The notes under the pieces were generated by a model that was given only the letters and a program-made list of their open reading frames with translations, was not told the DNA's origin and did not search any database. Below are positions 8,001-22,574 of a stretch of DNA of 25,062 nt, piece by piece. This stretch comes from a virus. Both the position numbers and the translations under genes were made by a program. The stretch covers positions 1 through 25,062 of the IMG/VR virus record IMGVR_UViG_3300025806_000206; one strand, given 5' to 3'. Every line of letters begins with the position of its first letter. Within the stretch, counting starts at the first letter, position 1.

Positions 8001-9931
8001 GTGCCACGCTTTGCGTCAATTATTGCCCAGTGATAACCGCTTGAGTCTGTCCGCTTAATTAACACGTAAGTAGGTTTAAAACCAGTCGTGATTGTTGGCC
8101 CTGTTGCAGAACCATTGCCTGTGTACGATCCAAACTTGGAAAATCCGGCAACTTCAGACCAGCAATAGGCAATTAGGCTATCGCCTGAAGTATCTAAGCC
8201 TGTAAAATAATTTGTGCTAAAAACACTGCTAGTTGGGTCTGATAGCGAACCACCTGACGAAATATCGTATTCGGCCCAGTCCTTAAAGAATAAAACTTTA
8301 TTAGCAGAAAGGAGGGGACTTTGGATTACCCAATCAGAGTTAGAGGCTCTAGATTTAGTTATGACTAGTTTTGGAGCACTCGAAAGGCCGTGGCCTACGG
8401 TGTTATTACCAGCACTTGAACGGCCACCAGTATAGCTAACAATACTAAATCCATAGTCATTGTTTGCACTTACTTGACTATTCAAACTTCCGTCAGTGTT
8501 TGATACTGCAGCGCCGTTGGCCTTCCAGCACCAGGCAACGTAATCTTTAGAGCTGCCATTGACTCCAGCTGCATTGCCCAACGAAAAGCCATCAGAATCG
8601 AAACTCATCAACTCATTTGTTGCTGTACCTTCTGCAGCAGTCAGATGACTGGAAAGATACTTGTTAGCACCGCGCACACTGTCATATAAGTTGTGTCCAT
8701 TGGTGCTTGTCCGTGACTTGATCCAGACAAAATCTGGTTGGAAGGCAAGCGATGATATTGACTGCGTTCCACCATTACCGGAGTAGGTCACCACGTCCAT
8801 CCCGCCTTTGGGATTTAGCGTGACCGTTTCCTTCTGATCGTATCCAAGGGCTTGAGTGGTGCTGTTGTCTGTAAACGGCAGGCGGAAAGAATTGTCGGCT
8901 ACGGATATACCAGAGTCAATAAGTAACTTCCCATCAACACGGACCCTTGCAACTAGTCCATATCCAGTTGAACCAATACTGGTTAAGTTGCCTGAGCCAG
9001 TAAGCGCAGTAACCCAACCAAGGTTAGTGTCAGACGTTCCAATGTTGAATCCAGAAACAGCACTGCCGTTTACCCTAATTTGATTGCTTGAACTAAATTT
9101 ATAGCCGTAAATTTCGACCTTTGATGTATAAGGGATTCCGCTGGTAAATGTAAGGTCGGAACCTCCCGCACTCCAGGTATAGGTTGTTGGCGATATGTCG
9201 AACGCTGATTGCCACCCACTACCTGTCGTATTACTTGTGCTACCAGAGTGGCTTCCATAAGTGCTCCACGTCTGGCTATTGTTAAACCAGCCATATGTCC
9301 CAGTAAATTCCTTAGCTTGCCAGACCCCGTTAGCATCAGTTTCGCCAAAGTCAGTCGGCGCAAGCGCCTGCCCGTCCACAAAGTTGACTTCAGCTAGGTA
9401 GCCGTCGTGATAAGTGCTGCCCGGAGCGTAACCAATAGTGTGCGAAATATTGTTGTTAAAAGTAAGGTCTGCGTTTTGCGTTGGATAGGAAGAACTAAAA
9501 AACGACGTCTCCTGAACTCCATTAACGTATATTTTTACCCTGTTCGCTGCTGTAGATTCAGTCGTGTCAATTGCAACAACAAAATGATACCAAGCACTTG
9601 TGTCACGAAATTTTCTGTCAGTAATTACGTCGTATCCACCCGTTGCTGCATCAAGAACCCTAAGGTTATCGCCTCCATCATCATTGTTAAAACGAATCAT
9701 GGAGTTAGTGCCACTTCCACCAAACAAGCCGTGCTTTTGACCACCTATTTGGCTGCGCTTTACCCAACCGCTCCAAGTCCACGTCTTTCTATTACCTGCA
9801 GATCCAAAAGTTCTGGACAGATTCGCGCTATCACCGCTGTTAAATCTCAGCGACTTCGACACAGAAAAAGCATCCGCCGCTCCAGCAGTCGTTGCTAGAA
9901 ACAGCGGACTCGCAGCACCAGGAATACTCAT
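5051..9931 (-). CDS. Giant modular receptor-binding adhesin/tail spike, 1626 aa
   Basis: The ATG at 9931 overlaps the fibre stop as ATGA, so I prefer it to an in-frame upstream start at 9979. Residues about 25-195 are LamG/concanavalin-like (KTWTWSGWVKRSQ, WYHFVVAIDTT, VKIYVNGVQET, DGYLAEVNFVDGQAL). A SQTWS beta module ending VDGKLLIDSGISV lies at 217-345. The first A-B-C beta module (SYTGNG/DUF7483-like) spans 393-695 and a second beta-sandwich 697-815. A SPRY-like domain (SSGKWYWEI, GVALDLDNGTLAFYKNG) covers about 844-1022, and the A' module 1048-1130. A cupredoxin-like domain with His1176, Cys1226, His1229 and Met1232 lies at 1134-1240, a second SQTWS module at 1255-1397 and B'-C' at 1412-1615. 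This is the architecture of a host-binding tail appendage. Which domain binds the host is unknown. Confidence 0.8.
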   Translation of the reverse strand: MSIPGAASPLFLATTAGAADAFSVSKSLRFNSGDSANLSRTFGSAGNRKTWTWSGWVKRSQIGGQKHGLFGGSGTNSMIRFNNDDGGDNLRVLDAATGGYDVITDRKFRDTSAWYHFVVAIDTTESTAANRVKIYVNGVQETSFFSSSYPTQNADLTFNNNISHTIGYAPGSTYHDGYLAEVNFVDGQALAPTDFGETDANGVWQAKEFTGTYGWFNNSQTWSTYGSHSGSTSNTTGSGWQSAFDISPTTYTWSAGGSDLTFTSGIPYTSKVEIYGYKFSSSNQIRVNGSAVSGFNIGTSDTNLGWVTALTGSGNLTSIGSTGYGLVARVRVDGKLLIDSGISVADNSFRLPFTDNSTTQALGYDQKETVTLNPKGGMDVVTYSGNGGTQSISSLAFQPDFVWIKSRTSTNGHNLYDSVRGANKYLSSHLTAAEGTATNELMSFDSDGFSLGNAAGVNGSSKDYVAWCWKANGAAVSNTDGSLNSQVSANNDYGFSIVSYTGGRSSAGNNTVGHGLSSAPKLVITKSRASNSDWVIQSPLLSANKVLFFKDWAEYDISSGGSLSDPTSSVFSTNYFTGLDTSGDSLIAYCWSEVAGFSKFGSYTGNGSATGPTITTGFKPTYVLIKRTDSSGYHWAIIDAKRGTNKELLANLSAAEGSTLSVSFTSTGFQITNTAPDINGSGGTFIYAAFADRPGNNWTPNNLLASGLFANAGFTNPGNAFDGNTGTYAEVNTSAALGQFVFPDGIAVSSSVKIKYSSATSGNVYLNGSATALAGTGAQEHNISFSGTLNTIGIQSSSQPVIYYIDIDNNGAYLTGSDVVDQDSLVDSPSNGTQDDTGVGGEVVGCYATLNSLYTTSSGAVLSDGNLKFVTAGSNGNSAMSATIAVSSGKWYWEITPTNIGSGVAIGIAYASEQTTDYPGYPATSWSYRSNSTKMNNASSSSYGVSYTTGDVIGVALDLDNGTLAFYKNGASQGTAFTSLSGEFVPKIGDLGSSSTMIANFGQRAFAYAAPSGYKSLNTANLPTPAIADGSKYFDTKLYSGTGSSQNITGLNFSPDWVWTKARSHTDFHTLIDAVRGPSKTLYSNDTAAEGTDATGITAFNSDGYSLGANTTAGSVNINGRSYVSWNWDGGNGNNTYTVTVSGGKFYIDGVQQPTLTLAEGSTYKFDQSASTNSSHPLRFSTTSDGTHGGGSEYTTGVTTAGTPGSAGAFTQIVIAASAPTLYAYCTNHSGMGFQVNTSDKGGYTIPAGGLNSSVYDQSQTWSGMMTSTGNGIEPANPATSGFNGTLTGLGCRVNGNSTMTWTPTGGYAFTGSAIIYCAGDGMPSGNQFTCVHAGGTLDFSSSVTTGVTQTAVNLTDLGITSPITSITIASGVSNPRFSGIEIDGKLLIDSGVSVTNVPSIASQVMASPESGFSIVEFTNPSSGTWTFGHGLNAAPEFFVMRPKGATSNWQTYHKGLTALSSGRKFIWLNSTNAELGTTNTYWTSDPDSSVCYAGTGMQPGGQQVHIAYCFAPVAGYSAMGSYTGNGSTDGPFVFTGFRPAFLIQKRTDGVGNWRIRDTARGTYNAIEDVLYADTNNSTITEDPYDFLSNGFKIRTSGPHNNASGGTYIYLAFAENPFQANGGLAR
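5087..6790 (-). repeat. Second copy of the A-B-C module, split by a cupredoxin and a beta module
   Basis: A' is at residues 1048-1130 (FSPDWVWTKAR, AAEGTDATG, SDGYSLG, SYVSWNW). B' is at 1412-1511 (GFSIVEFTN, FGHGLNAAPEFFVMRPKG, IAYCF) and C' at 1512-1615 (VAGYSAMGSYTGNGS, GFRPAFLIQKRTD). Between A' and B' lie about 280 residues, where the first copy has only about 20. Confidence 0.7.
6212..6532 (-). other. Cupredoxin-like (type 1 copper) domain inside the adhesin
   Basis: Residues 1134-1240 of the adhesin read NTYTVTVSGGKFYIDGVQ, then GSTYKFDQSAS, SSHPLRFSTTS, SAGAFTQIVIA and TLYAYCTNHSGMGF. His1176, Cys1226, His1229 and Met1232 reproduce the ligand set of type 1 copper sites, with a C-x2-H-x2-M spacing. 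I recognise similar domains in marine phage and bacterial structural proteins. Copper binding itself is not shown by the sequence. Confidence 0.65.
7847..8755 (-). repeat. First copy of the A-B-C module in the adhesin
   Basis: Residues 393-695 hold A (FQPDFVWIKSR, AAEGTATNE, SDGFSLG, DYVAWCW), B (GFSIVSYTGG, VGHGLSSAPKLVITKSR, IAYCW) and C (VAGFSKFGSYTGNGS, GFKPTYVLIKRTD). The same order recurs at 5087-6790. The repeat is at protein level and diverged in DNA. Confidence 0.75.
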
Positions 9932-12357
9932 GAAACGTTCAGCAGCGAAGTAACCGTGATGCGCGTTGCGCTCTCGCAATAATAAGCCAATACATCAACA
10001 GCAGCAGCCGTTGTCGTCAACGTTGGTGCCGTACCACCAGCAAACTTATACTTCGTGCCCGCATAAGCAAGCGTCCTGCTTCCCGTTCCATCCTGCGTAA
10101 TCACAATCACACCGGACTGACCAGCAGTCACATTGCTTGGATCACCAAGTGTTCTTCCACCCCCGAGCGTGACGCTGAAGTTGTTACCCAAACTCATGTC
10201 AACAGCAATGGTTGCCCCATCCGTCAATGCAACAGGCGTTCCACGCTGTGCCTTCGTAAAGCTCTGAGTAACGGCAAGGCCAGCAAGCGTTGTAGTCGAA
10301 GCAGGAATCGTGACCGTAACGTCAGCGCCTGGATCAGCAACACTCAACGTCAGCTCATGAGCGTCAGGCGTTGCACCTTCAAAAATCAGGCTGCCATTAA
10401 ACGTAGCGTCACCAACAAAGGTTGATGTGCTGTCGAACGTTGCAACACCTGTGACATCTAGCGTTCCAGGGACATCGACGTTGCTTGTAAATTCAACGTC
10501 TGTGCCGTTAGTCGCTGTTTGCAGCAGTTGGCGAGCACTGCCGTTTGCAAGCTTGCTAACTGCAATCTCAGCTGAAGCGTTGATGTCCGCATTGGCAATC
10601 GTGCCATCCAGAATCATCGTGCTCGTAACAGTCCCCGTGTCACCAGTTGTTATTACCGTTCCGGTAATATCGGGGAACGTAATTGTGCGATCAGCGGTCG
10701 GATTAGCGCAAGTAATTGTTAGTTCAGATCCATCGTCAGCGGAACCTTCAAACGCCAATACAGCGTTCTGTCCTAACAGCACCGTTCCAGTAAATGTTGG
10801 GCTTGCTGCACCTAACTTCTCAATGTCAAGCTCCTGCAATGCAGCCTGAACATCAGTCGCTGAAATGCTTCCTGAAGCGGTAAAGCTGATATTTGAAGCA
10901 GTCTGACCAGCGATTGCATTTGATACATCGATCAGAATAAAATCTGCACCTGCCCCAGTAGACAGAAGCATGTCTGGGGGCGCTAGCGAGACTGAAGGCG
11001 CTGAACCTGAGCCAGTACCGCTGGCACTGACAACCACGTAATAATTTTGGTTGGTCGAAGCAGGTGCTGGCAAGGCTTGCCCGCTCGTAAAGCCAGCAGC
11101 ACTGCCCTCACTCGTTACGCTGTCCAGCAAGTTTGTGCTGGCGTCATACGTTCCAGCAAGAATAAGGTTCCCGCTAATAACCGTAATCGGCAAGAATGAT
11201 GACCCAGTGTGGATATAAAGGTCTTCGTTAAGCTCGTCAAAAAAGAACTGACCTTTAAAATCTGCTGCCGGGAAAGTAACAACATTGTTAGTTGCACCCG
11301 CACCACCAAATTTGGTGATTGACGAGTCAGCTAGCTTTTCCCCCGTAATCGCATCGCTTGCAATTCGATCTGATGGGATTGTGCCGCTTGTGATTTTTGA
11401 CGCCGCAAGATCAGGTATATCAGTAGCGGCAAGAGTCGCACCACTTGAGACATGACCTTGGCCGTCAACCGTTACCTTCGTGAAGGTGCCAGTTGATGTG
11501 GTGTTGCTGTGGTTCAGATTGCCGCTACCGTCAACAGCTAAGCCCGTTCCAGGGATAACAGCACCCTTTGCGCTGCTAGTGGCTGCAGGCAAATCACTAC
11601 CCGTTAAGGCACGGCCGCCAGTTACTAGACCTTTGACGTTGTAAGTGACGACATGGTGCGTTGAGCTGGCCGTTACATCGTTATCAACTTCAATCGTGTT
11701 GGAGTCCATGCGGAGCCCTTCACCATTGACAATCACACCGCCTTTGGCGCTTGTCGTTGCAACAGGAATATCACTGCCATCAATCGTTCGATAAGCAACC
11801 GTTCCACCAGCACCGGTTGGGCCAGCCATGAACTGGTTGGCTGAAGCCGTGTCATCAATCGTTGCTGCAATCTGAACGCTTGAACCCGTTGTAGTGGCAA
11901 CAATGTCAACTAGACCAACCGTGCTCCCAGTAACAGTGTTGACAGAGCCAGCCGCCTTAAGGCTTAACCATGCTGACCCTGACCATGCGTACAAATTATT
12001 GTCGTCAGTGTCTAAAGCAAGCTGACCTATAAACGCTCCAGAGGCAGGCAGCGTTGTGACTAGGTCAACCGTTGATTCGTTTGCAAGCTTGGCTGCTGTG
12101 ATTCCATCATCAGCGACCTTGGCCGTTGTAATTGCAGCATCAGCAATGTCTGCTGTGGCGATGCCACCTGCAGCAAACAGAATCTTTGCGCCTGGGATTG
12201 TGTCGTCACTGATTAAGGTGACACCGTTTGCGACCAGATCGCCAATCGTCAGCTTTTTTGTCTCGCTTGCACTGTTGTCAACAACAGCAACCAAGTCAGC
12301 AGTAGCTAAAGCAGAGCCAGCTAACGCATTTAGCTCACTAATTTTTAGGTCAGCCAT
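9928..12357 (-). CDS. Tail fibre with internal repeats, 809 aa
   Basis: The N-terminus MADLKISELNALAGSALATA is the typical start of marine cyanophage fibre or baseplate-attached proteins. The chain is low in cysteine, rich in Thr, Ala, Gly and Ser, and built of short repeats. Examples are IADAAITTAKVADDGITAAK (70-89), GSDIPVATTSAKGGVI (194-209) against GSDLPAATSSAKGAVI (253-268), and two FEG-ELT-P-AD-TITFP units (536-570, 659-692). The C-terminal 110 residues (QRGTPVALTDGATIAVDMSL to the end) form a separate beta domain found at the end of many marine phage fibres. Elongated, probably trimeric structure is inferred. GGAG lies 12 bases before the ATG. The stop overlaps the adhesin start (ATGA), so the two appendage proteins are made together. 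Confidence 0.75.
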   Translation of the reverse strand: MADLKISELNALAGSALATADLVAVVDNSASETKKLTIGDLVANGVTLISDDTIPGAKILFAAGGIATADIADAAITTAKVADDGITAAKLANESTVDLVTTLPASGAFIGQLALDTDDNNLYAWSGSAWLSLKAAGSVNTVTGSTVGLVDIVATTTGSSVQIAATIDDTASANQFMAGPTGAGGTVAYRTIDGSDIPVATTSAKGGVIVNGEGLRMDSNTIEVDNDVTASSTHHVVTYNVKGLVTGGRALTGSDLPAATSSAKGAVIPGTGLAVDGSGNLNHSNTTSTGTFTKVTVDGQGHVSSGATLAATDIPDLAASKITSGTIPSDRIASDAITGEKLADSSITKFGGAGATNNVVTFPAADFKGQFFFDELNEDLYIHTGSSFLPITVISGNLILAGTYDASTNLLDSVTSEGSAAGFTSGQALPAPASTNQNYYVVVSASGTGSGSAPSVSLAPPDMLLSTGAGADFILIDVSNAIAGQTASNISFTASGSISATDVQAALQELDIEKLGAASPTFTGTVLLGQNAVLAFEGSADDGSELTITCANPTADRTITFPDITGTVITTGDTGTVTSTMILDGTIANADINASAEIAVSKLANGSARQLLQTATNGTDVEFTSNVDVPGTLDVTGVATFDSTSTFVGDATFNGSLIFEGATPDAHELTLSVADPGADVTVTIPASTTTLAGLAVTQSFTKAQRGTPVALTDGATIAVDMSLGNNFSVTLGGGRTLGDPSNVTAGQSGVIVITQDGTGSRTLAYAGTKYKFAGGTAPTLTTTAAAVDVLAYYCESATRITVTSLLNVS
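10282..10383 (-). repeat. FEG beta repeat, copy 2 (fibre residues 659-692)
   Basis: FEGATPDAHELTLSVADPG followed by ADVTVTIPASTTT aligns with the copy at 10648-10752. Such units are common in marine phage fibre shafts. Confidence 0.6.
10648..10752 (-). repeat. FEG beta repeat, copy 1 (fibre residues 536-570)
   Basis: AFEGSADDGSELTITCANPT followed by ADRTITFPDITGT aligns with copy 2 at 10282-10383, with conserved FEG, D, ELT, P, AD and T-T-P positions. Confidence 0.6.
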
Positions 12358-12374: not shown

Positions 12375-13244
12375 TTAAATGTCCTGCTGTAACAGCAGTT
12401 TAGCGCCACTGTCTTGATCCAAGCGTATGTCACCAGAGTCCTCTTGCAAGAGAGCATCTGGCGTATCAGTTGACATTCTTAAGAGCAGCGGACCTGTTGT
12501 TATGAAATCAGCCGTAATTTGAACAGTGCTGTCAGGTGAAAACTGTATGGCGGCTGACGTAATAATTCCTACAACGCGCCACCAAATCTCATCGTCATTG
12601 CGCTCTGCAACCCCACTCGGGTTGTAGCCGTTCTTTTTAATATAAAAACGCCCGATAAAGTTACTGCCAACTTTTGTGCGATGCGCTAGCTCGTACAAGT
12701 ACATCGGCACCTCTTGGGTGCTATTGCCGGTATATTCCCAAAAAGCACTAATACGACCAGAGCCGGAAATTAAAGTATTAACTCTGGAACGAAACTCATC
12801 AGATAGCACCGTTGTGTCAACCGTTTCACGCTCAGTATTGATTTCAAAGCTATTAACTTGGGCCAAAATACGCGGCGCAGCAGATTCAACAATGACCTTG
12901 ATAGGTATTGAGTTGCCTGGAGTGGCAAGCGCAATCGCATTTGATTTGCCGCCACTGACCGCATTGGCAAAACTGTCGTAAAGCCTGATCCCGTCTAGCT
13001 CGTCAACATGAATAAACTTTTTTACAGCCGAGTCCGTGTAACCGTTGATAAAATCAAGACCGCTACCATCCGTACTTGTAATTTCGACTTGATCGCCTGA
13101 AACAAGTTGACCGTGCTCAAAATCAAAGCTAAACCGTTTTTGAGCTGCGTTTACGTCAGGAACATCAATCGTTGACCGCAACTCGCCGCCATTGAAAACA
13201 CGTTCTAATTCAATCTCGCCAAACGTTCCAAGATATACAGTCAT
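12375..13244 (-). CDS. Tail protein containing a tail-tube-like domain, 289 aa
   Basis: The ATG at 13244 overlaps the previous TGA (TGATG), so it is preferred to an in-frame GTG at 13274. Residues 1-110 form a beta-rich domain (TVYLGTFGEIELERVF, EHGQLVSGDQVEIT). Residues 125-205 resemble the tail tube protein: RETVDTTVLSDEFRSRVNTL then ISGSGRISAFWEY aligns with KETLDTSKQGDTFRSFVGSM then ISGSGTVELVY of the tube gene at 22152. The C-terminus carries a short acidic repeat (LLQEDSGDIRLDQDSGAKLL). It lies between the tip genes and the fibre, so a role as adaptor ring or fibre-attachment collar built on the tube fold is plausible but inferred. Confidence 0.65.
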   Translation of the reverse strand: MTVYLGTFGEIELERVFNGGELRSTIDVPDVNAAQKRFSFDFEHGQLVSGDQVEITSTDGSGLDFINGYTDSAVKKFIHVDELDGIRLYDSFANAVSGGKSNAIALATPGNSIPIKVIVESAAPRILAQVNSFEINTERETVDTTVLSDEFRSRVNTLISGSGRISAFWEYTGNSTQEVPMYLYELAHRTKVGSNFIGRFYIKKNGYNPSGVAERNDDEIWWRVVGIITSAAIQFSPDSTVQITADFITTGPLLLRMSTDTPDALLQEDSGDIRLDQDSGAKLLLQQDI

Positions 13245-13714
13245 CAGATATTCACGAATGTTGGAGCGCCACACCCTTGGAACGCAATGTCAGCCGCAAA
13301 AATTTCACCTACTGACATCGTTAGCGTCACATTCGTAATTATTACCCGCAACTCAATGTAAAGACCGTCTGCCGACCCATCATCAACCTTTAGTCGAAGA
13401 CTAGATCGAACTTCGTTTGGTGTATTTTGATCGCCTTGCAATAGGCTTGCCCCTTTCCCAGGGCTTCCGTCTCTCGCTTTAATTACTTTGTTAATAAACG
13501 TACTAGCGTTGTTTAAATTTGATTCATCTCTGTAATAAAGAACACGACAGCTGCCACTGGTGTTGCGGCTATCAGGCTCGAAAAAATCATCGCTCTCGCT
13601 AAGAGTCCTTGTGTTCAGCACGGAAACAGTCGTGCTGACAGTCCAATTCTGAACTGAGGCAATGGTGTTGCCTTCAAGCAACAGACTTCCCTTTGTGCCA
13701 GTAAAAAAGGGCAT
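13244..13714 (-). CDS. Second tail-tube-like protein, 156 aa
   Basis: The protein begins MPFFTGTKGSLLLEGNTIAS and has the general tail tube layout: an N-terminal strand pair, a central W..STT....NTRTL segment (24-38), SGSCRVLYYRDE (53-64) and a beta-rich end (GLYIELRVIITNVTLTMSVG). It matches the pattern, not the identity, of the tube protein encoded at 22152. Both ends are stop/start overlaps (TGATG at 13714 and 13244). It sits on the distal side of the tip gene and could form a tail-tip ring or an adaptor to the fibres. Similarity is by eye only. Confidence 0.6.
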   Translation of the reverse strand: MPFFTGTKGSLLLEGNTIASVQNWTVSTTVSVLNTRTLSESDDFFEPDSRNTSGSCRVLYYRDESNLNNASTFINKVIKARDGSPGKGASLLQGDQNTPNEVRSSLRLKVDDGSADGLYIELRVIITNVTLTMSVGEIFAADIAFQGCGAPTFVNI

Positions 13715-14094
13715 CAGAGCACGCCAATCAGATTAACTGTAACAGTGCTAATCCCTGAACGCACCTGGACGACCTGCGGGGGGCCTTCGTACCTGTACTT
13801 ATTCCCAAAAGTCTTTGCGTCAATCTCACTTGTATTGCCCTCCCAGCCTTTCGCGTAACCACTAGGCATAAAGTCAAACGTGCCAAACGTCCCCTGTTCT
13901 TCTTCGTAGTGGTCTAGAAACAGCTCAGCGCTGTAGTCCGGAATGTTTGCGTAAGTCAGGGACAGCTTCATGTTGGTGCGGTTGCTGCCGTACAAAATCC
14001 TATGCTCAACGCCGTTTTGACTCTTAAAGACCTTGACGGGAAAGTCGCCAGCGTCAAACGTGCGAGCGGTAGGGATTAAATCAGGGAAAGCCAT
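13714..14094 (-). CDS. Minor tail protein, lambda gpM-like, 126 aa
   Basis: A short beta-rich protein with AGDFPVKVFKSQNGVEHRIL, then YGSNRTNMKLSLTYANI, ELFLDHYEEEQGTFGTFDFM and VVQVRSGISTVTVNLIGVL. A signal-free start, a central ILYG...LSLTY...F..HY...GTF..F pattern and about 110-130 residues fit lambda gpM-type tail-tip proteins, which help join the tube to the tip. Unlike in lambda it is encoded after the J-like gene. It overlaps J by one base (TAATG at 14094). The assignment is by pattern and position. Confidence 0.55.
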   Translation of the reverse strand: MAFPDLIPTARTFDAGDFPVKVFKSQNGVEHRILYGSNRTNMKLSLTYANIPDYSAELFLDHYEEEQGTFGTFDFMPSGYAKGWEGNTSEIDAKTFGNKYRYEGPPQVVQVRSGISTVTVNLIGVL

Positions 14095-17000
14095 TAGACA
14101 TCCTCCACTTCTACAGAGTTGGGGTCTTCAACGAATTTGGCAAGCTCACTAGCTCCATCACTAGTGCAATTATGCTCGGAAGCCACAATATCCACTGTGC
14201 CCTCCTGAGAAAACGTTAACTGCTCAACAACATAAACGTTTTCGCTCTTGTTGCCGTCTTGGACAGTGAACACAGAATCGTGGAATCTGGTGTCAGCCAC
14301 CCTCCCACCGCTAATTTCCATCTGTCCATCTTCTACGTCTTCTGAACCTACTTGGAAGAAGGTGACGTTATACATTCCATCAGGGAGGCTTTCGACACTT
14401 GTCACCGCCCCGGATGAACTGACCGTACCATTTTTTGAGCTTCTATACGGAGAAGACTCAGTAATGACCTTAATGTATGAACCCGCTCTTAAATTTAAAC
14501 CTTCTATCGTCGTTGAAAAACTAATTGTATGAGTGACAAACTTACGAAGACCTAAGAAGTATTGCGCGACCTTAACAGCGTGACCCCTAGACGTGCAGAA
14601 CCGTGTCAAATCAAAATTCTCTTCCGGCAGGTTTGCTGATGGGCTACCTTTTATTTTTACTTTCATAACTCTTTCTTCTGGGAGTTTATTACGCGACTCA
14701 AACCGATACCGAACCGTGGCTGTAAAGTTTCTGCGCTCTTCGCTTCTTAAATATTCGAGCTTGTAGCTGTCTTCCAAGATGTTGCCTGACGTGAACAGCT
14801 GATCAATTGGTACTGGCCCGGTGTTGATGTGACCGCTTGCTTTGTTATACGGGAGAGCTGGCAGCAGAGAAAATTTCCCATCCATCATCACAAAGTTGCA
14901 CAAGAAATAAGGCGCAGTGTCTATGATGTATTGACGAAGATTTGTGCGTTCTGTAATCGCTCCATTAAAAAATAATTCTTGCTGGTGAATGAACCTAGCG
15001 GCCTCTCTAAAATCATCTACGTTTAGCAAGAACGCATTATCTGGGGTCATGCCCATAAGATTGCCCGCTCCGCCTTGCCTGTCGGTCAGCAGGTAAAAGA
15101 CAAGGTCGGAGTATAAGTGGCTTGGGCCAAACGAAGCTTGGTAATACAAATCGCCTGGTTCGTCATAAGGGTTATTTACAGAAGCAGTCGTATCAGGGTG
15201 CAAACGTTTAACAGGTATCCCCTGCCCGATCCAGCAACGCAGCTGATCCAAGCTTGTAAAGTTACGGCTAGCCTTGAGCGATAACCCGGCAATTGTTAAA
15301 CCGTTATATTCTGGAACTTTGCTATTAGGCAAAACTTCGTTGACGTAAACAATACTGTGCTCAGGCTCTGATTCGTTTGATTTTTGCACCAAACCTCTAT
15401 AGAAACTTAGATCTGCATACTGACTATGATTTTCAAATTCGGTATCTCCTGTTAACTCAGACGTGCCAGGAACAGTCACAAGATCAGCGACCCTGTATTG
15501 AAAACCTACTTGGTTATAAGTCCAGTAGAAAGCGTTATTGGCAGGAGAAATGGTCTCGGTGTGCGTAAAAGTTTCTTCCTTATTCCAATCGCTTGTCGTG
15601 TAACCGTCATCAATAACTTCGACAGGGCCAGAAAAATTCCACTTCTTTGTCAGGCCAGTAAAGTGGCCCGGAGGCAAACTCATCACCTCAACATTAAGTC
15701 TGATTTTTATTCTTTTATTTCCTTCTTGAATGCTTTTAATTGCGCTGTTTTTTGTACCAAGTGCAAGATTTTCTGCATCACCAAAAATGTCGTAGAAGTA
15801 GCCACCCATGCGCCCTTCAGGCACGCTTGTGGTATTAATGTCCGTAATCCTGTAATAAAACCCGGACCACCGAATTTCTTGGCCAGAGGGATGGTTGTTT
15901 CTGAAATTATTGCTGCTTGGATAAGGCGAATTAGAGTATCCTGGCTGCTCTGTGCCTTCTGTCGAACCCTCTCCGCGCCTAATAAGAATAAGATCGTTCT
16001 TATTAAACCCTGGAGAGCTACCAATTACTTGAGCACTAAGTATATTCCAAACATAAGTTTGGCCTTGGTTCACTCTTGCATAGTGGTCAGCTTCCAATCG
16101 TCGCTTGTTGACCGTCCATTGCACCCTTATCCATCTATTGCCGGGCAAATCTTCGCGAGTGTTTAAAGTTCTTTGTGTTCCTTCACCGCCTGGATAATTA
16201 TCAGGATTGCCAAAAATTGCAAAGGTAAAAGAACCCATCCTGCCGGGAGGCTCCAGATTGCCTGCGTTCCGGTCTACGACCATTGAGATGGCCCGGCGAA
16301 ATACACCACCCTGATCCGCAGGTCTTGCAGAATTTGGTTGTACCGCTGAAGGCACCGTGGTCTGTTGACCAACTATTCTGGTTCTTGGGTTGCGTAAAAA
16401 TTCTTTGTTCTTTTCAATATCTTTCTTTCTAATCCGGGAGCCAGCCATTTCTATTTCAAATTTTCCAAGACCTGGAACATCCTTATCTTCAAAAATAAGG
16501 GGTTTTTCTACATCAGATATTGACGCAGAGAGAAGAATCATTCCCTGATCGTCAGAGAGCTGCGCCACCTCAGATGCCGCAACTGACACAAACTTAAATT
16601 CAAGCTCTTTAGGCTCTCCTTGTGGATGCTTGAACCTAATAAAATTGTATTGATCGACAGGCGTGCTGCCCCTGACAACAAAAAATAAATTTATACGTCT
16701 AAACCTAAAAGCATTCCCACTGCTATCTACGCCAGCTTCACGAACGTAAACTTGAAACACAGAAGACCTGACAATTGAGCCTGTGTACGTTCCAGAGCGC
16801 ACTGATACTTCGTTCTTTTGAAATTCGTCTAACTGGTCTGGAGTGGGCAGGTTGTTAAAAGAGCAAATACCATTTAACCGTTGAAAAACTCTACTTCGGA
16901 TGCCTATCTCAGTTACAACAGCGGGCTTGTTGTTTCTGACGATAGCGGTAGCAATTCTTGTTACGGGATAAAATATAGGCTTAACCCCACTCCCATCAGC

Positions 17001-18536
17001 AATAAAGTCTTTTTCAGGATCTATAACTTCATGGTCGTTTACGAAACCAATTCTTGCGTCTTGCGACTCTTCAGTATCAATACACCTTAAGCTAATTTTT
17101 TGAGTCATATTAATCGTAGGGTCAAACCGTTGATGCCTGCGCCCTATAACCACGAACAATACGTTGCCTACAGCAAATTGCTCTCCAACCTGCATTGCTG
17201 CATCGGCTGCAATCTGCTCTGCCTCGACCGTAGCGTTAATGTCATCGACATTTTCACCGCCTCTATTCTTGCTGCGCTGATACTTGTCTTCCGGAATTTC
17301 TCCTTTCTTGATTTCAAATTCAACAATGTCGCCAACATCAACTCGATCTCTTTCCGTTAAGTTAGTACCTGGCACGTCAAGCACTGTTCCGTTTGTTCTT
17401 ATAAGTGCGCTTAAACCCATGCGGGGGCTGTACTGACGACCTTCGCCATCCATATAAAACCGCCGTACTTTTTTTAACAGATCTTCGTCGCCTATGTCAA
17501 AGTTTGAATCCTTGTCGCCAGTAATCTTCATTTGGCGCAACGTTAATGCGTGCTTTTGCTTGTCCTCAGTTCCCTTAATGATTGGCACAAGCTCAAAATT
17601 TACCCTGTAACCAGTGCCATTGGGAATAGCCCCGTACACCCCAAACTGAGTGTTATTAGTAGGCGAAAACGCATGACAAAAACTTTTAGATTTGGCTCCC
17701 GTATCGCTTGGGCATTCAAATACATCATCATCAAGCGCATACTCAAACGGATCTCCTTTACTTGGATCGCCAGCCGATCCATAAAAAAGATTTCTCCGCT
17801 CCAAACGGTTAAAGCCTGACGCTGAATCAGTTAGCCCATCCGTCCGCATCGGTGAGTTTCGCTTCCAATAAAACGCAAAAAAGTCGTTAAACAAAATATC
17901 TAAGGCGTTGTTGCCGAGAAAAATACCTTCAAGCTCAGGCTCAATAATCCCATCAGGGCTGACACCATCGGCAAAACCGTGTTCGCCAACAACAAACATC
18001 AGCTTGGCTGATTGCTGCGTTCCATGGCTAAACATCCGGGACCAAACCAGCTTTGGCGTAACCAACATCCCGCCAACTTTTTTAGCCTTGACATAACGAC
18101 CAAAAATGATCGGTATGGGAGAACCGTAATCTGCAAGCTCATTTAAGCTGTCAAATCCACGGCTTGGGACGAAACGGCTTGCAGCATTGATGCTGCCAAG
18201 GTCTAGCTGTGATCGTTTTGAAGCTTCAGGTGCTTTTGGCTTTGGCGTCAGCAGGTATGAAACGCCAGTTAATACAAGACTGACCGCAATACTTACAATT
18301 GCGGCGGTTATTGGATCGCCGTTAACTACATGAGGAATGTGTTCATATTCTGCAGGTCTTAATCGACCACGCCGCCTTACTTCAGCCGCAAATAGTTGAT
18401 ACTCTTCTTTTGTGATTCCAATTGTCTTGATTAATTCTCTTTCGTACGGAAGCAGTGGTACGTCGTAAACAGTTGGACCGAAGACCATTGCACCTTCTTT
18501 GACATTCGATTTACGTACAAAATTCCCGTCTGCCAT
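14094..18536 (-). CDS. Tail tip/host-specificity protein, J-like, 1480 aa
   Basis: This is the largest tip protein. Residues 17-70 form a helical head (YDVPLLPYERELIKTIG). Residues 75-96 are a hydrophobic segment (ITAAIVSIAVSLVLTGVSYL) of the kind seen in J- and I-type tip proteins. From about 130 the hub begins (ELADYGSPIPIIFGRYVKAK, GGMLVTPKLVWSRM, KLMFVVGEHG, GIFLGNNALD). Residues 764-1019 hold two copies of a GRMG-x5-IFG domain. About 1165-1360 corresponds to the phage-tail hub domain of J proteins (FREAARFIHQQELFFNGAI, LEYLRSEERRNFTATVRYRF, ARLRAGSY-type GLNLRAGSYIKVI). It closes the tail distally and is expected to contact the host or the fibres. The start at 18536 overlaps the NlpC-like gene by 106 bases; an ATG at 18488 is an alternative. 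Confidence 0.8.
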   Translation of the reverse strand: MADGNFVRKSNVKEGAMVFGPTVYDVPLLPYERELIKTIGITKEEYQLFAAEVRRRGRLRPAEYEHIPHVVNGDPITAAIVSIAVSLVLTGVSYLLTPKPKAPEASKRSQLDLGSINAASRFVPSRGFDSLNELADYGSPIPIIFGRYVKAKKVGGMLVTPKLVWSRMFSHGTQQSAKLMFVVGEHGFADGVSPDGIIEPELEGIFLGNNALDILFNDFFAFYWKRNSPMRTDGLTDSASGFNRLERRNLFYGSAGDPSKGDPFEYALDDDVFECPSDTGAKSKSFCHAFSPTNNTQFGVYGAIPNGTGYRVNFELVPIIKGTEDKQKHALTLRQMKITGDKDSNFDIGDEDLLKKVRRFYMDGEGRQYSPRMGLSALIRTNGTVLDVPGTNLTERDRVDVGDIVEFEIKKGEIPEDKYQRSKNRGGENVDDINATVEAEQIAADAAMQVGEQFAVGNVLFVVIGRRHQRFDPTINMTQKISLRCIDTEESQDARIGFVNDHEVIDPEKDFIADGSGVKPIFYPVTRIATAIVRNNKPAVVTEIGIRSRVFQRLNGICSFNNLPTPDQLDEFQKNEVSVRSGTYTGSIVRSSVFQVYVREAGVDSSGNAFRFRRINLFFVVRGSTPVDQYNFIRFKHPQGEPKELEFKFVSVAASEVAQLSDDQGMILLSASISDVEKPLIFEDKDVPGLGKFEIEMAGSRIRKKDIEKNKEFLRNPRTRIVGQQTTVPSAVQPNSARPADQGGVFRRAISMVVDRNAGNLEPPGRMGSFTFAIFGNPDNYPGGEGTQRTLNTREDLPGNRWIRVQWTVNKRRLEADHYARVNQGQTYVWNILSAQVIGSSPGFNKNDLILIRRGEGSTEGTEQPGYSNSPYPSSNNFRNNHPSGQEIRWSGFYYRITDINTTSVPEGRMGGYFYDIFGDAENLALGTKNSAIKSIQEGNKRIKIRLNVEVMSLPPGHFTGLTKKWNFSGPVEVIDDGYTTSDWNKEETFTHTETISPANNAFYWTYNQVGFQYRVADLVTVPGTSELTGDTEFENHSQYADLSFYRGLVQKSNESEPEHSIVYVNEVLPNSKVPEYNGLTIAGLSLKASRNFTSLDQLRCWIGQGIPVKRLHPDTTASVNNPYDEPGDLYYQASFGPSHLYSDLVFYLLTDRQGGAGNLMGMTPDNAFLLNVDDFREAARFIHQQELFFNGAITERTNLRQYIIDTAPYFLCNFVMMDGKFSLLPALPYNKASGHINTGPVPIDQLFTSGNILEDSYKLEYLRSEERRNFTATVRYRFESRNKLPEERVMKVKIKGSPSANLPEENFDLTRFCTSRGHAVKVAQYFLGLRKFVTHTISFSTTIEGLNLRAGSYIKVITESSPYRSSKNGTVSSSGAVTSVESLPDGMYNVTFFQVGSEDVEDGQMEISGGRVADTRFHDSVFTVQDGNKSENVYVVEQLTFSQEGTVDIVASEHNCTSDGASELAKFVEDPNSVEVEDV
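15480..16247 (-). repeat. Tandem duplicated domain in the J-like protein
   Basis: Copy 1 (residues 764-900) runs from GRMGSFTFAIFGNPDN to SGFYYRITDI. Copy 2 (908-1019) runs from GRMGGYFYDIFGDAEN to VGFQYRVADL. The conserved start, the middle (RWIRVQWTVN against KRIKIRLNVE) and the end occur in the same order, so this is an internal duplication at protein level. Confidence 0.65.
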
Positions 18537-18802
18537 GTGACTGCGAATGCCCAGGATTGCTGCGGTAACAGCAGAATGTCCCCATCATACTCAGGCTTCT
18601 TGACCCGAAAACCCCACTTCAACAAATCACGCGATACTTCCCATTTGCTTGCCTCGTACCAGGACTGCTTAAACGGCGGCGGTTCAATGCCGATATAACC
18701 CAAAGCCTTGTAGCAAAGGTGGATACAGTCGATATAACCATCGCTGCCGTCAGCGCCTAGCCGATACGGCATCCCAATTAGATCACTGCAATCGGACACC
18801 AT
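18431..18802 (-). CDS. NlpC/P60-like tail assembly protein, gpK-like, 123 aa
   Basis: Short protein with GMPYRLGADGSDGYIDCIHL, where Cys26 after Asp25 is in the place of the NlpC/P60 nucleophile. PPPFKQSWYE and KPEYDGDILLLP follow, then AFAVTWQTGILYVN. In active family members a histidine precedes the last block (H-x-G-I/V); here Phe or Ala occupies that place, so the catalytic pair looks incomplete. Position between the tip protein and the J-like gene matches gpK-type peptidases of lambda-like tails, which may cut peptidoglycan during entry. The gene overlaps its neighbours by 20 bases (upstream) and 106 bases (J-like gene). Confidence 0.65.
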   Translation of the reverse strand: MVSDCSDLIGMPYRLGADGSDGYIDCIHLCYKALGYIGIEPPPFKQSWYEASKWEVSRDLLKWGFRVKKPEYDGDILLLPQQSWAFAVTWQTGILYVNRMSKKVQWSSVQLFTTYHCFRTKEN

Positions 18803-19289
18803 TACTAATTGGCAGGTTGCCTACAAGTGTTTGAGTCAAAGATCGATTTGGCACGTCCGTACCAACAGCATCCAAGACAGAACTAAGCTCTATGTTGAGC
18901 GAAACGTTGTCCCACTGTCCACCACTGACGACACCTGTGTAAGTGTGAACAACAGTAGCGCCAGGACTGGTCACTGTCTGATCTTCAACAGAAGTGGAGT
19001 TTTCAATAATTAACACCTGAACCATCATTTGGTAGCTTTTGATAACTGCGTCCCTACCCCACTCCCTCGTCAAAGCATTGTTTGGGAAAACAAGGGATGC
19101 GTCCATCCCATCGCCTGTGCGGTTAACAGTGACGCCAGAAAAACCAAATGGCACAAACTGAAAATTCGTATTTACATTGTCAGCGCCAGTGTGAGTCATG
19201 TTTTTCCCAATAAAAAAGTTCTGAAAGCGGAAATCAGCACCGCCTTCAATCACAATTTGCAAGGCATGACCAAATGCAAAGCTTGTCAT
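18783..19289 (-). CDS. Tail tip protein (DUF1833/gpL-like), 168 aa
   Basis: A beta-rich protein: ADFRFQNFFIGKNMTHTG, then FQFVPFGFSGVTVNRTGDGM, ASLVFPNNALTREWGRDAV, VQVLIIENST, WDNVSLNIELSSVLDAVGTD and LTQTLVGNLP. The order after the tape measure and before NlpC/P60 is that of minor tail proteins M/L. The VLDAVG-x-D-VP-x-R-x-LT signature is one I associate with cyanobacterial phage tail-tip proteins. The ATG overlaps the tape measure stop by four bases (ATGA at 19286-19289). It probably forms the ring between tube and J. Confidence 0.6.
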   Translation of the reverse strand: MTSFAFGHALQIVIEGGADFRFQNFFIGKNMTHTGADNVNTNFQFVPFGFSGVTVNRTGDGMDASLVFPNNALTREWGRDAVIKSYQMMVQVLIIENSTSVEDQTVTSPGATVVHTYTGVVSGGQWDNVSLNIELSSVLDAVGTDVPNRSLTQTLVGNLPISNGVRLQ

Positions 19290-21562
19290 AGGCCCAACCT
19301 CTTACGCGTACCACCGCTCATTTGTAACCTCTTTAACGTTTGCTGTTCACCCTGTTTAGCACCTTGGCTGGCGGCTTGCCTCATGCCAGATTGGAACTGA
19401 TCAGCGGTTACATAGTCAACGCTGTTGATACGTTCCACGGTGTAGCGAACGTCGATTGGTGCGGCGACTGCTGTTCCGCCACCGCTGTCTTCCGCTCCAC
19501 CGCTACTGGTAGGAATAACGCTGTTTCCGCGTGAGCCGCGTGAATAACGCGACATGCTTTCACGCATTTTGGATTCAGGGATGACGTACTCAGGCTCACC
19601 ACCCTCACCAATCAATGCGTTGGTTGGCTTGTTGACAAAACCGCCTTCTGCGAAGGGGCTAACCATTCCGCCGCCAATTTGATTGACACTAGTAAGCCCT
19701 GTGCCAAAAGGATCAGTAGAGCTGCCACCACCACCAGGCATTGAAACACCCAGTGCCTTCATGATCGTGCCGTACAAAATCATTGCTAACTGCTGAGCAA
19801 TAATCTTTTTCGCCATTGCTAAGAAGTCAGAAGCAATAGATTTCAACATGTCTGCTAATGCTTCTTGCCCAGTTTTGGCACCAGTAACAACATCCCCAAA
19901 AGCATTCGCAAAAGCACTGCCCATTGATGTAGCAGCAAATGCAACTTGGTTTTGTGTCTCTAAAAGCTTTTCAAGCTGCTGTTGCATCTGGAAGCCAGGG
20001 TCAGCTTCAAGCCGACGTTGCGCTTCTTCTTCTTGGCGCTTAGCTTCTTTCGCTGCTTTTTTATTTGCTTCGTCCGTAACCTTTTGCTGTTTTTCGCGCC
20101 GATCTAAAATATCTTGTTCAAAACCAGCCGCCGCTTCTAATAGTGCTATTTCTTCTTCACGCGGCAATAAGTTAGCTTCTGAAATTTTTTGCTTTTCAAT
20201 TTGAAAATTAAGAACAATTCGTTCTGCTTCAGTTAAAGCATCTGACTGACCAAGCAAACGCTTGTTTAAATCAAATAACTCTTGCGACATATCAACACGC
20301 TCTTTTGCTGCAGCGCCGCCACCAGAATCTTTGGTTGGCAAAGTAATAGGCGAAGTCCCCGTAGCGCTTGAAGCAATATCAGCGGCACTGGCCGGGAGTT
20401 GTCCAGGCACAGCCCCGCGGGCAATGGCTAGACGCCTTGACAGCTCACGCTCAAGAACTTCCTCACGAAACTGTTGAGCCTCAGTAGACCTTCCAAACGG
20501 GCCTGGTTTGCCAAATTTATTGTTCGTCTGCAAAGTTGCTGCTTGTTCTGCCGCAAGCCGTGCAGCAGTAGTTTTGCCGCCAGAGGAAACGCCCTCAACA
20601 ATGTTGCCAACAGTTTTTGCGACACCAGCAAGCAACCCACTGATAAATCGAATAGCAGGCTCAAGCTGTCTAATAACGGTGCCTAGTTCGGATATTGCAT
20701 CAGTAATCGCAGGTATTGCACTTTCAGTAGCCGCAACCTGAGCATCTTCAACTGCATTTTGGAACTCTTTAATTTTTGCAGCAGGACCATTTAATGCCTG
20801 AGCAAGACTTTCAGCACCATCAGACTCAATGCGCTTAAGTGCCTTAATAACAATGTCACTTGTTAGCAACCCTTGGGCTGCATATTCTTTTAGCTTGCCT
20901 GCGGCAATCCCTGTCTCATCAGAAATAGCTTGAAGGACTAATGGAGCTTGTTCTGCAATGCTGCGGAACTCATCGCCACGCAATGCGCCAGAGCCTAAAG
21001 CTTGCGACAACTGCGTAAAGGCGGCAGAGGCTTCTGCGGCTGTTGCCCCACCAAGGACTGCTGCGGTTCTGAAACCACCAAAAGTCGAAGTTATATCTTC
21101 TAAGGAAACACCAAGCGGTCGCAAACGTGCAAAAGCATTTGCAAGTGATTGATTTGCTTCTGTTTGACTAAGTTTAAATTTCTTTGCTGCCTGCGCTGCA
21201 GCATTTTGAAGGCCAGCTACTTCGCCAAAACGTTTTCCTAGCAGTTGAATCCTGCGTTCTGATTCAAGCCTTGCTATACCAGTTTGAACACTTTTAAATC
21301 CAGCAAAAGCAACAGCAGCCTTGACGATCCCACCACGCAACCCGCCCATGCTTCTACCAAGCCGGGCAGCATTGCTTTCAAGATCCCGAAAACTTCTTAT
21401 GCCATTTCGACCCATTCGTTGGAATGCGGCCTCAACGTCCCGCGCACTTTTTTGATTTTTCTTTAACGCTTGATCAACTTTTTTACTGTGTTGCTCAACC
21501 TTTCGCAGCGGATTAATAGCCTTAGCGGCTTCGACGATCAGTTCTACGTTCGCTCTTGCCAC
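19286..21562 (-). CDS. Tape measure protein, 758 aa
   Basis: The frame starts with GTG at 21562, with GGA six bases upstream; no in-frame ATG precedes it. The N-terminal 110 residues are a charged coiled coil (VEQHSKKVDQALKKNQKS). Residues about 100-270 match the tape-measure N-terminal domain (GGATAAEASAAFTQLSQALG, SGALRGDEFRSIAEQAPLVL, GKLKEYAAQGLL). Further helices follow, including an EAKRQEEEAQRRLEA stretch, and then a C-terminal part with hydrophobic helices (FLAMAKKIIAQQLAMILYGT) and GGFVNKPTNALIGEGGEPEY, common at tape-measure ends. At the usual 0.15 nm per residue the tail would be about 110 nm long. It follows the frameshifted chaperone gene, as in most long-tailed phages. Confidence 0.9.
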   Translation of the reverse strand: MARANVELIVEAAKAINPLRKVEQHSKKVDQALKKNQKSARDVEAAFQRMGRNGIRSFRDLESNAARLGRSMGGLRGGIVKAAVAFAGFKSVQTGIARLESERRIQLLGKRFGEVAGLQNAAAQAAKKFKLSQTEANQSLANAFARLRPLGVSLEDITSTFGGFRTAAVLGGATAAEASAAFTQLSQALGSGALRGDEFRSIAEQAPLVLQAISDETGIAAGKLKEYAAQGLLTSDIVIKALKRIESDGAESLAQALNGPAAKIKEFQNAVEDAQVAATESAIPAITDAISELGTVIRQLEPAIRFISGLLAGVAKTVGNIVEGVSSGGKTTAARLAAEQAATLQTNNKFGKPGPFGRSTEAQQFREEVLERELSRRLAIARGAVPGQLPASAADIASSATGTSPITLPTKDSGGGAAAKERVDMSQELFDLNKRLLGQSDALTEAERIVLNFQIEKQKISEANLLPREEEIALLEAAAGFEQDILDRREKQQKVTDEANKKAAKEAKRQEEEAQRRLEADPGFQMQQQLEKLLETQNQVAFAATSMGSAFANAFGDVVTGAKTGQEALADMLKSIASDFLAMAKKIIAQQLAMILYGTIMKALGVSMPGGGGSSTDPFGTGLTSVNQIGGGMVSPFAEGGFVNKPTNALIGEGGEPEYVIPESKMRESMSRYSRGSRGNSVIPTSSGGAEDSGGGTAVAAPIDVRYTVERINSVDYVTADQFQSGMRQAASQGAKQGEQQTLKRLQMSGGTRKRLGL

Positions 21563-21586
21563 GACTGATCCAGCACTAGCCCTATC

Positions 21587-22116
21587 CTACCGCCGTCTTG
21601 TTTTTGCGCGATCCATTGCCTGCTGTTCCCGTTCACCCTTCAACTCGTAGTACGCAGCAAAATGCACAAGCTCCGCATCGGTTAGTTCCGTACGAAGCCT
21701 GCTAAGCGTCATTCCCAATTCGCAGCACAAGAAGAACTCAAAATTGAGCCAGTTGTCCTGCTTTAGTCGTTTTTTGCTTCTTCAAGGTCAGCCTCTTCAC
21801 CAAGGCCAAACAAGAACAGCTCAAGCTCGTTCAATACAGACTCAGGCAACTGCCGTTGCAGCTTTGGAGCGTCGGCAGAAACAAAAGCCTTTGAGCCATC
21901 TTCAAGCTCTGCCATCTGGCACAGCATCTGCGTGCTGATGTCTAATGCTTCTTCAGTGCCAGAAAGGCTTTGTGCTTTCTTGCGGTCAGCGCGTGTGATC
22001 GGCTTAAAAAACAGATCAACAACTTTCTTGCCTTCAGCGTTTTTTAGTTCAAACTTGCGGCGCTGGTTGAGATCAAACGCCCCAACCAGCAGATCGACGG
22101 TGCGATTTTGAGCCAT
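21587..22116 (-). CDS. Tail assembly chaperone fusion, gpGT-like, by -1 frameshift (176 aa)
   Basis: Reading 22116-21769 in frame, slipping back one base and continuing 21769-21587 to TAG adds 60 residues to the first 116. The extension reads RLKQDNWLNFEFFLCCELGM, then TLSRLRTELTDAELVHFAAY, then YELKGEREQQ and a basic end. The TLSRLRTELTDAEL...FAAYYEL block fits the gpT-type (DUF4035-like) chaperone domain. The second frame lacks an early start codon and ends 24 bases before the tape measure GTG. The layout is that of lambda G/GT, where the fusion recruits tube subunits to the tape measure. Confidence 0.85.
21763..22116 (-). CDS. Tail assembly chaperone, gpG-like, 117 aa
   Basis: The zero-frame product begins MAQNRTVDLLVGAFDLNQRR and contains FKPITRADRKKAQSL and LPESVLNELELFLFGLGEE. 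It is a soluble helical protein of normal gpG size, located between the tail tube and the tape measure. By analogy with lambda it coats the tape measure during tail assembly and is absent from the virion. Its last codons contain the slippery sequence, so a fraction of ribosomes make the longer fusion described separately. There is no Shine-Dalgarno sequence in the 35-base gap before the ATG. Confidence 0.8.
   Translation of the reverse strand: MAQNRTVDLLVGAFDLNQRRKFELKNAEGKKVVDLFFKPITRADRKKAQSLSGTEEALDISTQMLCQMAELEDGSKAFVSADAPKLQRQLPESVLNELELFLFGLGEEADLEEAKND
21769..21775 (-). other. -1 ribosomal frameshift slippery site A AAA AAC
   Basis: The codons GCA AAA AAC (21777-21769) hold a canonical X-XXY-YYZ heptamer, two codons before the zero-frame TAA. 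After slippage the -1 frame opens directly into a gpT-like domain. No stimulatory stem was established by eye. Confidence 0.85.
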
Positions 22117-22137
22117 TAAATAAAAGCTTGCGCTTAA

Positions 22138-22143
22138 ATTATA
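22138..22143 (-). promoter_or_regulatory. TATAAT box in the gap between tail tube and chaperone genes
   Basis: The 35-base gap on the minus strand contains a perfect TATAAT. The best -35 at the right distance (ATGAAC) is poor. It could be a late promoter that resets expression after the highly expressed tube gene, or it may be chance in an AT-rich gap. Confidence 0.3.
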
Positions 22144-22151
22144 GACCTAAA

Positions 22152-22574
22152 TCACTCCAAGTTCATAGTGATCGCGCCGCTGGTGACAAAACTGCAGGAC
22201 ACAACAACAAGTTCACCGGCAGTTGAAGTAATCTCCATGTCCGTAATAATGCCAGCAAAACTGACGGAATCAGTGCCAGAACTTGTACCGGTTGTAAACA
22301 ACTCAAAAGTTGCGTCGGCTGTGTCAGCAGTCGTAACCACATCTTCGAGGAAAGCTGCTTGGCCTGTTGCATCCGGGTCGTAAACCAGCTCAACAGTGCC
22401 AGATCCAGAAATCATGCTGCCAACAAAGCTGCGAAAAGTATCGCCCTGTTTTGAAGTGTCAAGCGTTTCTTTCGTAGTGGTTAAGCTCCAACTACGAGTG
22501 CCGACGATTGTTGCGTTGGATGAGCCTGCAGCGTCAAACTGGACTGCTCCTTGTTCGCCTCGGATTGTGGCCAT
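22152..22574 (-). CDS. Major tail tube protein, 140 aa
   Basis: The protein starts MATIRGEQGAVQFDAAGSSN and is beta-rich, Ser/Thr/Gly-rich and almost free of lysine. The central WSLTTTKETLDTSKQGDTFR, then SFVGSMISGSGTVELVYDPD, is the tail tube signature. The C-terminal half is FAGIITDMEITSTAGELVVV, then SCSFVTSGAI. Its place between the tail terminator and the chaperone pair is that of the tube protein in long-tailed phages, and many copies would form the tail. AGGA nine bases before the ATG gives it one of the better ribosome binding sites here, as expected for an abundant product. Two relatives are encoded at 12375 and 13244. Confidence 0.85.
   Translation of the reverse strand: MATIRGEQGAVQFDAAGSSNATIVGTRSWSLTTTKETLDTSKQGDTFRSFVGSMISGSGTVELVYDPDATGQAAFLEDVVTTADTADATFELFTTGTSSGTDSVSFAGIITDMEITSTAGELVVVSCSFVTSGAITMNLE

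Follow-up and report, generated by a model that had tools for sequence, protein, structure and literature searches.

Two homologs of the tail tube protein that appear to be inherited with the tail tip genes of uncultured aquatic phages

In published structural accounts, phage T5 possesses a tip ring, p140, that separates the tube from the distal tail protein and is described as derived from a duplicated tube gene; p140 is a trimer that builds a pseudo-hexameric ring, is 9% identical to the T5 tube protein, and is encircled by p132, an immunoglobulin (Ig)-like collar that holds the side fibers (PMC10038345). In T4, gp54 and gp48 form extra tube-like rings between the baseplate hub and the tube (PMC8718954, PMC10038345). 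The tube protein of T1, gp41, contains a sandwich that starts with residues 2 to 15, is interrupted by an Ig-like domain at residues 16 to 94, and then resumes (PMC11945409). In lambda, a ring of gpM connects the tube to the L/J hub, and the tip includes the C-terminal helix of gpH (PMC10721106). Here, we analyze a 25,062-base virus record (IMG/VR record IMGVR_UViG_3300025806_000206, positions 1 to 25,062; referred to as the window), whose tail operon encodes two additional homologs of the major tail tube protein, p156 and p289. These are probably old tube paralogs that were fixed in a lambda-like tip, where they would form one or two extra tube-fold rings.

Three open reading frames (ORFs) on the minus strand were translated: the major tail tube protein (140 amino acids [aa]; 22152 to 22574), located between the tail terminator and the chaperone and tape measure genes; p156 (156 aa; 13244 to 13714); and p289 (12375 to 13244), which is 289 aa long counted from the ATG at 13244 and 299 aa if an upstream GTG is used. 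A preliminary description of this DNA, made from the letters alone, had proposed these three ORFs as tube-fold proteins of a single tail operon because of a shared pattern, and both of the motifs that it quoted are present, each followed by SGSG. In single-sequence BLASTP comparisons, the tube protein matched p289 (E value 2e-7, 47% identity over 34 aa) and p156 (E value 0.002, 20% over 137 aa); the p156/p289 comparison was not significant (E value 0.36). PHROG models of the major tail protein matched the tube (phrog_10528, E value 3.6e-20), p289 (0.0039), and p156 (0.0095). Within the families, phrog_1407 was matched by 24/25 p156 members and phrog_10528 by 20/27 p289 members. Against the sequences of the PDB, the tube profile retrieved the R4C tail tube (8gtb, E value 1.3e-4), and the p289 profile retrieved nothing at an E value of ≤1.

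Family profiles were built from relatives on viral contigs, with ORFs sorted by best match, those below 0.75 or above 1.4 times the query length discarded, and one sequence kept per 92%-identity group, yielding 26 tube, 26 p156, and 28 p289 sequences. Profile-profile alignment, one of the checks suggested in the preliminary description, gave hhalign probabilities of 98.58% for tube and p156 (E value 1e-15, 132 columns), 97.12% for tube and the C-terminal part of p289 (E value 5.5e-11, 130 columns), and 83.24% for p156 and the same part of p289. The remaining 63/66 pairs among 12 tail gene profiles reached at most 5.71%, and column shuffles (60 for each of the three pairs, 180 in total) at most 4.34%. 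With wider families (113 p156 and 101 p289 sequences), the E values were 5.5e-19 for tube and p156, 1.1e-17 for tube and p289 without its insert (see below), and 9.3e-11 for p156 and p289 without the insert. In the locus set retrieved with the p156 profile, a hidden Markov model (HMM) of the tube matched all p289 (74/74) and all p156 (87/87) ORFs but none of the other tip genes compared (M, 0/83; L, 0/44; K, 0/47). The tube protein, p156, and p289 are thus homologous, and all three carry the tail tube fold, in agreement with the proposal of three tube-fold proteins and with scores far above those of the controls.

The tube fold had been assigned to the C-terminal half of p289 only. Residues 123 to 262 (12459 to 12878) do hold most of the fold, but the first 13 to 14 residues of p289 are also in register with the first 13 to 14 of the tube and of p156 in weak hhalign matches. 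When residues 15 to 122, or stretches with nearby borders, were removed from the p289 profile, residues 1 to 14 (13203 to 13244) aligned with tube residues 1 to 14, and the match extended from residue 1 to the end. Removal raised the tube-p289 score from 66 to 72 to 76 and the p156-p289 score from 38 (probability 72%) to 48 to 51 (93 to 94%); full-length tube and p289 profiles with the insert columns removed aligned at 97.7% (E value 1.8e-12). In a control with five fake first strands drawn from the insert, the scores stayed at 67 to 68 (tube) and 39 (p156). The fold thus begins at residue 1, is interrupted by about 108 residues, and continues after them, and we have replaced the assignment to the C-terminal half by the insertion of a domain after the first strand. 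A motif of our own wording for this strand is found in 73/74 p289 ORFs of at least 260 aa. The inserted, or decoration, domain (residues 15 to 122; 12879 to 13202) has a predicted local distance difference test (pLDDT) score of 63 to 89 in the AlphaFold2 model. The C-terminal tail (residues 263 to 289; 12378 to 12458) is conserved in the alignment and is modeled with low confidence (pLDDT of <50 for residues 261 to 289). The insert matched none of 10 other tail profiles and gave one weak PHROG match, to a family of unknown function (phrog_28626); in structure comparison, its region returned middling matches (Z scores of about 5 to 6) to unrelated beta domains and to FCWL1 chain E. The lack of a standout family is no proof of a new fold.

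Structure prediction, the second suggested check, was informative mainly for p156. AlphaFold2 models were made for p156 and p289, and in both the pattern of strands and helices fits a beta-sandwich with a long loop and a flanking helix. In a Foldseek search with p156, 16 of 503 matches had an E value of ≤1e-3, and every one of the 16 was a component of a phage tail, a gene transfer agent, or a tail-like particle, including R4C, RcGTA, and lambda V. In a second structure comparison, nearly all rows were tube, tip, or Hcp proteins, and the Z score reached 9.2. For p289, the best Foldseek match in the PDB was the T1 tail tube (9l0f_G, E value 3.7e-4), and the second comparison listed, below its top row, mostly tail tube and baseplate proteins with Z scores of 6 to 7 spanning residues 6 to 259. 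Nine BFVD matches of p289 at an E value of ≤1e-3 were mostly uncharacterized, with low template modeling (TM) scores, and were set aside as evidence. Since the modeled structure of p289 gives weak support, the tube fold of this protein is argued mainly from the profiles.

The operon runs, on the minus strand, from the head-tail adaptor, stopper, neck, tail terminator, tube, chaperone, and tape measure protein (TMP) to the L-like, K-like, J-like, M-like, p156, p289, f809, and f1642 genes. The letters were assigned from position and weak family matches; the adaptor, stopper, and chaperone were named by position, and the terminator and neck by PHROG matches. The tip module comprises, in order, the TMP C terminus, L, K, J, M, p156, p289, and the fiber gene f809. 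Its inheritance was followed in 15 loci that contain the tube, p156, and p289, including the window. At one locus (L010), the tube, chaperone, and TMP are 28%, 25%, and 29% identical to those of the window, and the tip proteins are nearly the same (L, 95%; K, 91%; J, 94%; M, 91%; p156, 99%; p289, 87%). Tubes are 28 to 31% identical in L010, L026, and L058, yet the p289 proteins are 70 to 87% identical. Rank correlations of divergence, calculated for 13 loci after two near-copies were dropped, were 0.88 for tube and chaperone and 0.86 for p289 and f809 (n = 11 loci); p289 correlated with L at 0.64 (12 loci), J at 0.59, M at 0.48, K at 0.47, and the tube at 0.37. The divergence of p156 correlated with nothing above 0.27 (0.23 with the tube).

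The DNA shared by the window with L010, L026, and L003 begins at nucleotide 1911/1912 of the 2,277 nucleotides of the TMP gene, upstream of which nothing is shared; L005, L015, L025, and L041 share a longer TMP end with the window. The breakpoint common to L010, L026, and L003 indicates that the last ∼122 TMP residues (19286 to 19651) travel with the tip. Comparison of these loci suggests that recombination transfers the tip module as a unit to unrelated tubes, with the junction inside the tape measure gene. That p156 and p289 belong with the tip genes is well supported: they are inherited together with the tip and do not follow the tube. The L010 identities and the gene order conserved in far relatives place the extra tube-fold proteins with the tip genes, in line with the earlier suggestion of tip or collar rings.

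At least 300 relatives of p289 and at least 534 matches to the p156 profile were found in viral contigs, and 80 of each were kept. M, p156, and p289 were present in 65/65 loci that contain J and continue for 2.2 kb or more after it, a set that was mostly retrieved with p289 and is therefore biased by the query. With J as the query, 2.2 kb or more of sequence follows the match in 17 of 23 loci, and M, p156, and p289 occur in all 17 (hand count). In the 75 loci retrieved with the p156 profile, some of which are second cuts of contigs already in the set, p289 adjoins p156 in 63/63 loci with room, M adjoins it in 67/67, and f809 lies downstream in 58/58. The order of the module is kept down to about 32 to 35% p156 identity, and f809 directly follows p289 in 79 of 80 loci. 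All p289-bearing records retrieved were metagenomic. In tblastn searches of 50,697 isolate phage records, three p289 proteins and two of three p156 proteins found nothing, and the only matches of the third p156, a distant one, were tube-like genes in the cyanophages S-H1 and MED4-117. For the tubes, isolate relatives exist among cyanophages and roseophages. MED4-117 was considered as a phage with two tubes and rejected, as the record ends within the second copy and carries the same genes at either end. The set of tip genes is shared by many aquatic phages that have not been cultured.

The three proteins had been attributed to duplication of the tube followed by specialization. The homology agrees with duplication, but a recent copy of the window's own tube is rejected by a tree of 14 tubes, 12 p156, and 12 p289 sequences (insert left out), with the caveat that its branches are long. 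The p156 clade (support 98/98, stem of 1.48 changes per column) and the p289 clade (99/98, stem of 2.37) are separate, and both lie outside the window-type tubes. Support for joining the p289 stem to the CRP-406 tube is weak (79/83), at a point where long branches meet, and long branches make the deeper joins unsafe. The tree suggests that the duplication, whether one or two events, is old or that the copies came from other phages. Variation in p156 follows a course of its own. Among 80 loci, 19 have type A and 61 type B, and type B is only 26 to 37% identical to the window p156, while p289 remains at least 59% identical. At L010, the DNA of p156 is 99% identical to that of the window, between M at 94% and p289 at 89%. 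Because its divergence tracks no tip gene other than p289, p156 may be exchanged by itself, independently of its neighbors, or be turned toward something outside.

If p156 and p289 are tip paralogs, their tube-like subunits would assemble into a ring each, or into one shared ring, and carry the DNA conduit on through the tip, with the M-like distal tail protein and the L/J hub as neighbors. The p156 ring would be plain, like that of T5 p140, and the p289 ring would have its inserted domain pointing outward. Assembly would begin at the hub, M, p156, and p289 would be added in some order, and the tube protein would then polymerize around the tape measure. Several observations weigh against this arrangement. 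Ring formation is a step that we infer, and both models are of moderate quality (p289, pLDDT of 71.3 and predicted TM score of 0.56; p156, 67.0 and 0.60). Superposition of the whole p289 chain on T1 is poor (TM score, 0.27; root mean square deviation, 15.9), and the top row of the second structure comparison for p289 is an unrelated PilZ protein (Z score, 7.7), with no row at 8 or above. Both genes sit after J, unlike the lambda distal ring gene. Among tip genes, p156 divergence tracks only p289, and weakly (0.26 to 0.33). Finally, the link between p289 and f809 (rho of 0.86, n = 11) may reflect plain linkage of neighbors. The ring reading draws instead on the homology, the p156 fold in its moderate model, the p289 insert, and inheritance with the tip.

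The decorated protein p289 would be the likelier docking site for f809, the fiber protein encoded directly downstream. Over 15 loci (19 before removal of near-copies), divergence of the p289 insert correlated with that of the f809 N terminus at 0.60, compared with 0.24 to 0.35 for J segments. That p289 holds the fiber is a tentative guess from gene order and this covariation, and it stays a guess because the two neighbors are linked. Equally speculative is a broader proposal, of a widespread tip type in uncultured aquatic siphophages that supplements the lambda set with a plain and a decorated tube-fold ring; the decorated ring would serve as a fiber platform, a duplicated tube protein taking the place of a dedicated T5-like collar, and the module could be grafted onto unrelated tubes through recombination inside the tape measure gene.

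The same fiber-related observations could be explained if p156 and p289 formed an outer collar that anchors fibers around the tip, outside the DNA conduit. Both genes lie directly upstream of the fiber gene in nearly all loci, the divergence of p289 tracks that of f809 best and the divergence of its insert tracks the f809 N terminus more closely than J segments, and T5 uses a separate collar, p132, around p140. The T5 collar is Ig-like, however, and not a tube fold, the correlations come from 11 to 15 loci and linked neighbors, and retention of the tube fold with its long loop, clearest in p289, points to ring stacking. We regard an outer collar as unlikely.

Somewhat less plausible again is that p156 and p289 are not parts of the tip but a minor component that is interspersed among the tube subunits or caps the tube, as with tube proteins that come in a long and a short form. 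Their tube homology is clear, and Synechococcus phage S-H1 (L169:14001 to 14842) has two tandem tube family genes (138 and 140 aa) in one tail operon, the second of which is the best isolate match of the far p156. The S-H1 genes differ from p156 and p289 in that they stand where the tube gene is expected, upstream of the chaperone and TMP. Minor subunits are also difficult to reconcile with p289 proteins that stay 70 to 87% identical beside tubes that are 28 to 31% identical (L010, L026, and L058), or with divergence that follows the tube at only 0.37 (p289) and 0.23 (p156), against 0.88 for tube and chaperone.

A role as assembly or fiber chaperones that use the tube fold outside the virion is improbable: it would accord with the exclusively metagenomic origin of the p289 records, but p156 and p289 are conserved in every module with enough sequence, and no tube-fold protein is known to us to act as a chaperone of this kind. 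Convergence or chance similarity of beta-rich proteins, to which only the nonsignificant single-sequence match of p156 and p289 could be credited, is refuted by the 63 other profile pairs and 180 shuffles at or below 5.7% and by the collinear full-length match once the insert is removed, and it retains next to no credibility.

The other genes of the module are consistent with a lambda-like tip, recognized by phrog_31 for J, by phrog_15525 and position for M, and weakly for L. The M-like distal tail protein (126 aa; 13714 to 14094, minus strand, as for the following tip genes) matches phrog_15525, minor tail protein (E value 2.3e-18); it had no Pfam match, and a PDB sequence search with the M profile found none. 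M follows J in the window but directly follows TMP in MED4-184 and S-H1, and these differing positions imply that M has moved within the operon. In S-CBS3 (L170:17265 to 18154) and S-LBS1 (L171:17970 to 19403), J is followed by two M-like genes, which looks like a duplication of M as well. The J-like central tip protein (14094 to 18536) matches phrog_31, central tail fiber J (E value 4.6e-9), and probably has an I-like N terminus, with residues 76 to 148 matching phrog_32, tail assembly protein (E value 4e-5). The K-like protein (18431 to 18802) has a weak NlpC/P60 match below the cutoff (PF00877, E value 0.021), and the L-like tip protein (18783 to 19289) was named by its position after TMP (19286 to 21562) and by PF05100, Phage_tail_L, matched weakly (E value 0.029) by 1/21 family members. 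Downstream of p289 on the minus strand, the fiber-like f809 (9928 to 12357) matches phrog_7389, tail fiber protein, over a short stretch (E value 5.6e-6), its top PHROG match being phrog_4757, a family without known function; f1642 (1,642 aa; 5051 to 9979) has three DUF7483 stretches and SPRY and tail fiber domains and matches a virion structural protein family.

Elsewhere in the window, positions 3642 to 4004 encode Phage_OMP (PF24653, E value 4.7e-35), a cyanophage outer membrane-like beta barrel, which together with the cyanophage relatives of the tube hints at a picocyanobacterial host. For the host, there were otherwise only two contigs of metagenome-assembled genomes (Flavobacteriaceae and Planctomycetaceae), and these were not trusted as hosts. 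Three consecutive plus-strand genes at 994 to 2641 match PHROGs of unknown function (phrog_564, phrog_650, and phrog_848), and their starts look signal peptide-like by eye.

If the tip paralog reading is correct, duplication of a tube protein supplies the tail tip of a lambda-like siphophage, outside the T5-like phages, with the kinship of tube and tip proteins still legible at the sequence level. The analysis also gives a name to a conserved module, seven genes together with the 3' part of the TMP gene, which viral metagenome contigs commonly carry. Two families that matched only major tail protein PHROGs, weakly, become testable as tip rings. The module resembles the lambda tip (gpM, gpL, gpI, gpJ, and the gpH C terminus) in its M-, L-, K-, and J-like genes, the I-like N terminus of J, and a TMP C terminus that is inherited with the tip. 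The distal ring protein of lambda is encoded between TMP and L; in the window, M is encoded after J and not before L, and there are two additional tube-fold proteins. The preliminary description had called the design unusual, which is half right, since T5 p140 and T4 gp54 and gp48 are precedents (PMC10038345). Like p156 and p289, gp54 and gp48 are additional tube-like tip proteins, T4 differing in its contractile tail with a sheath. In the accessible portions of the open-license literature, no paper besides the T5 work describes two tip-located tube paralogs in a siphophage. As with T5 p140, p156 and p289 are extra tube homologs whose genes sit among the tip genes and are inherited with them; unlike p140, there are two of them, their sequence kinship to the tube is still readable, and p289 carries an insert. 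The T5 tube protein has two tube domains per chain (for p140, this is deduced from its trimeric pseudo-hexamer), compared with one each in p156 and p289, and T5 has the separate Ig-like collar p132. In p289, as in T1 gp41, a decoration domain interrupts the tube fold behind its first strand, with the differences that gp41 is the main tube protein, that p289 comes in addition to the tube protein and its gene follows those of J and M, and that the p289 insert is longer. Because T5 p140 and T1 gp41 separately cover both main features, p156 and p289 vary a known theme.

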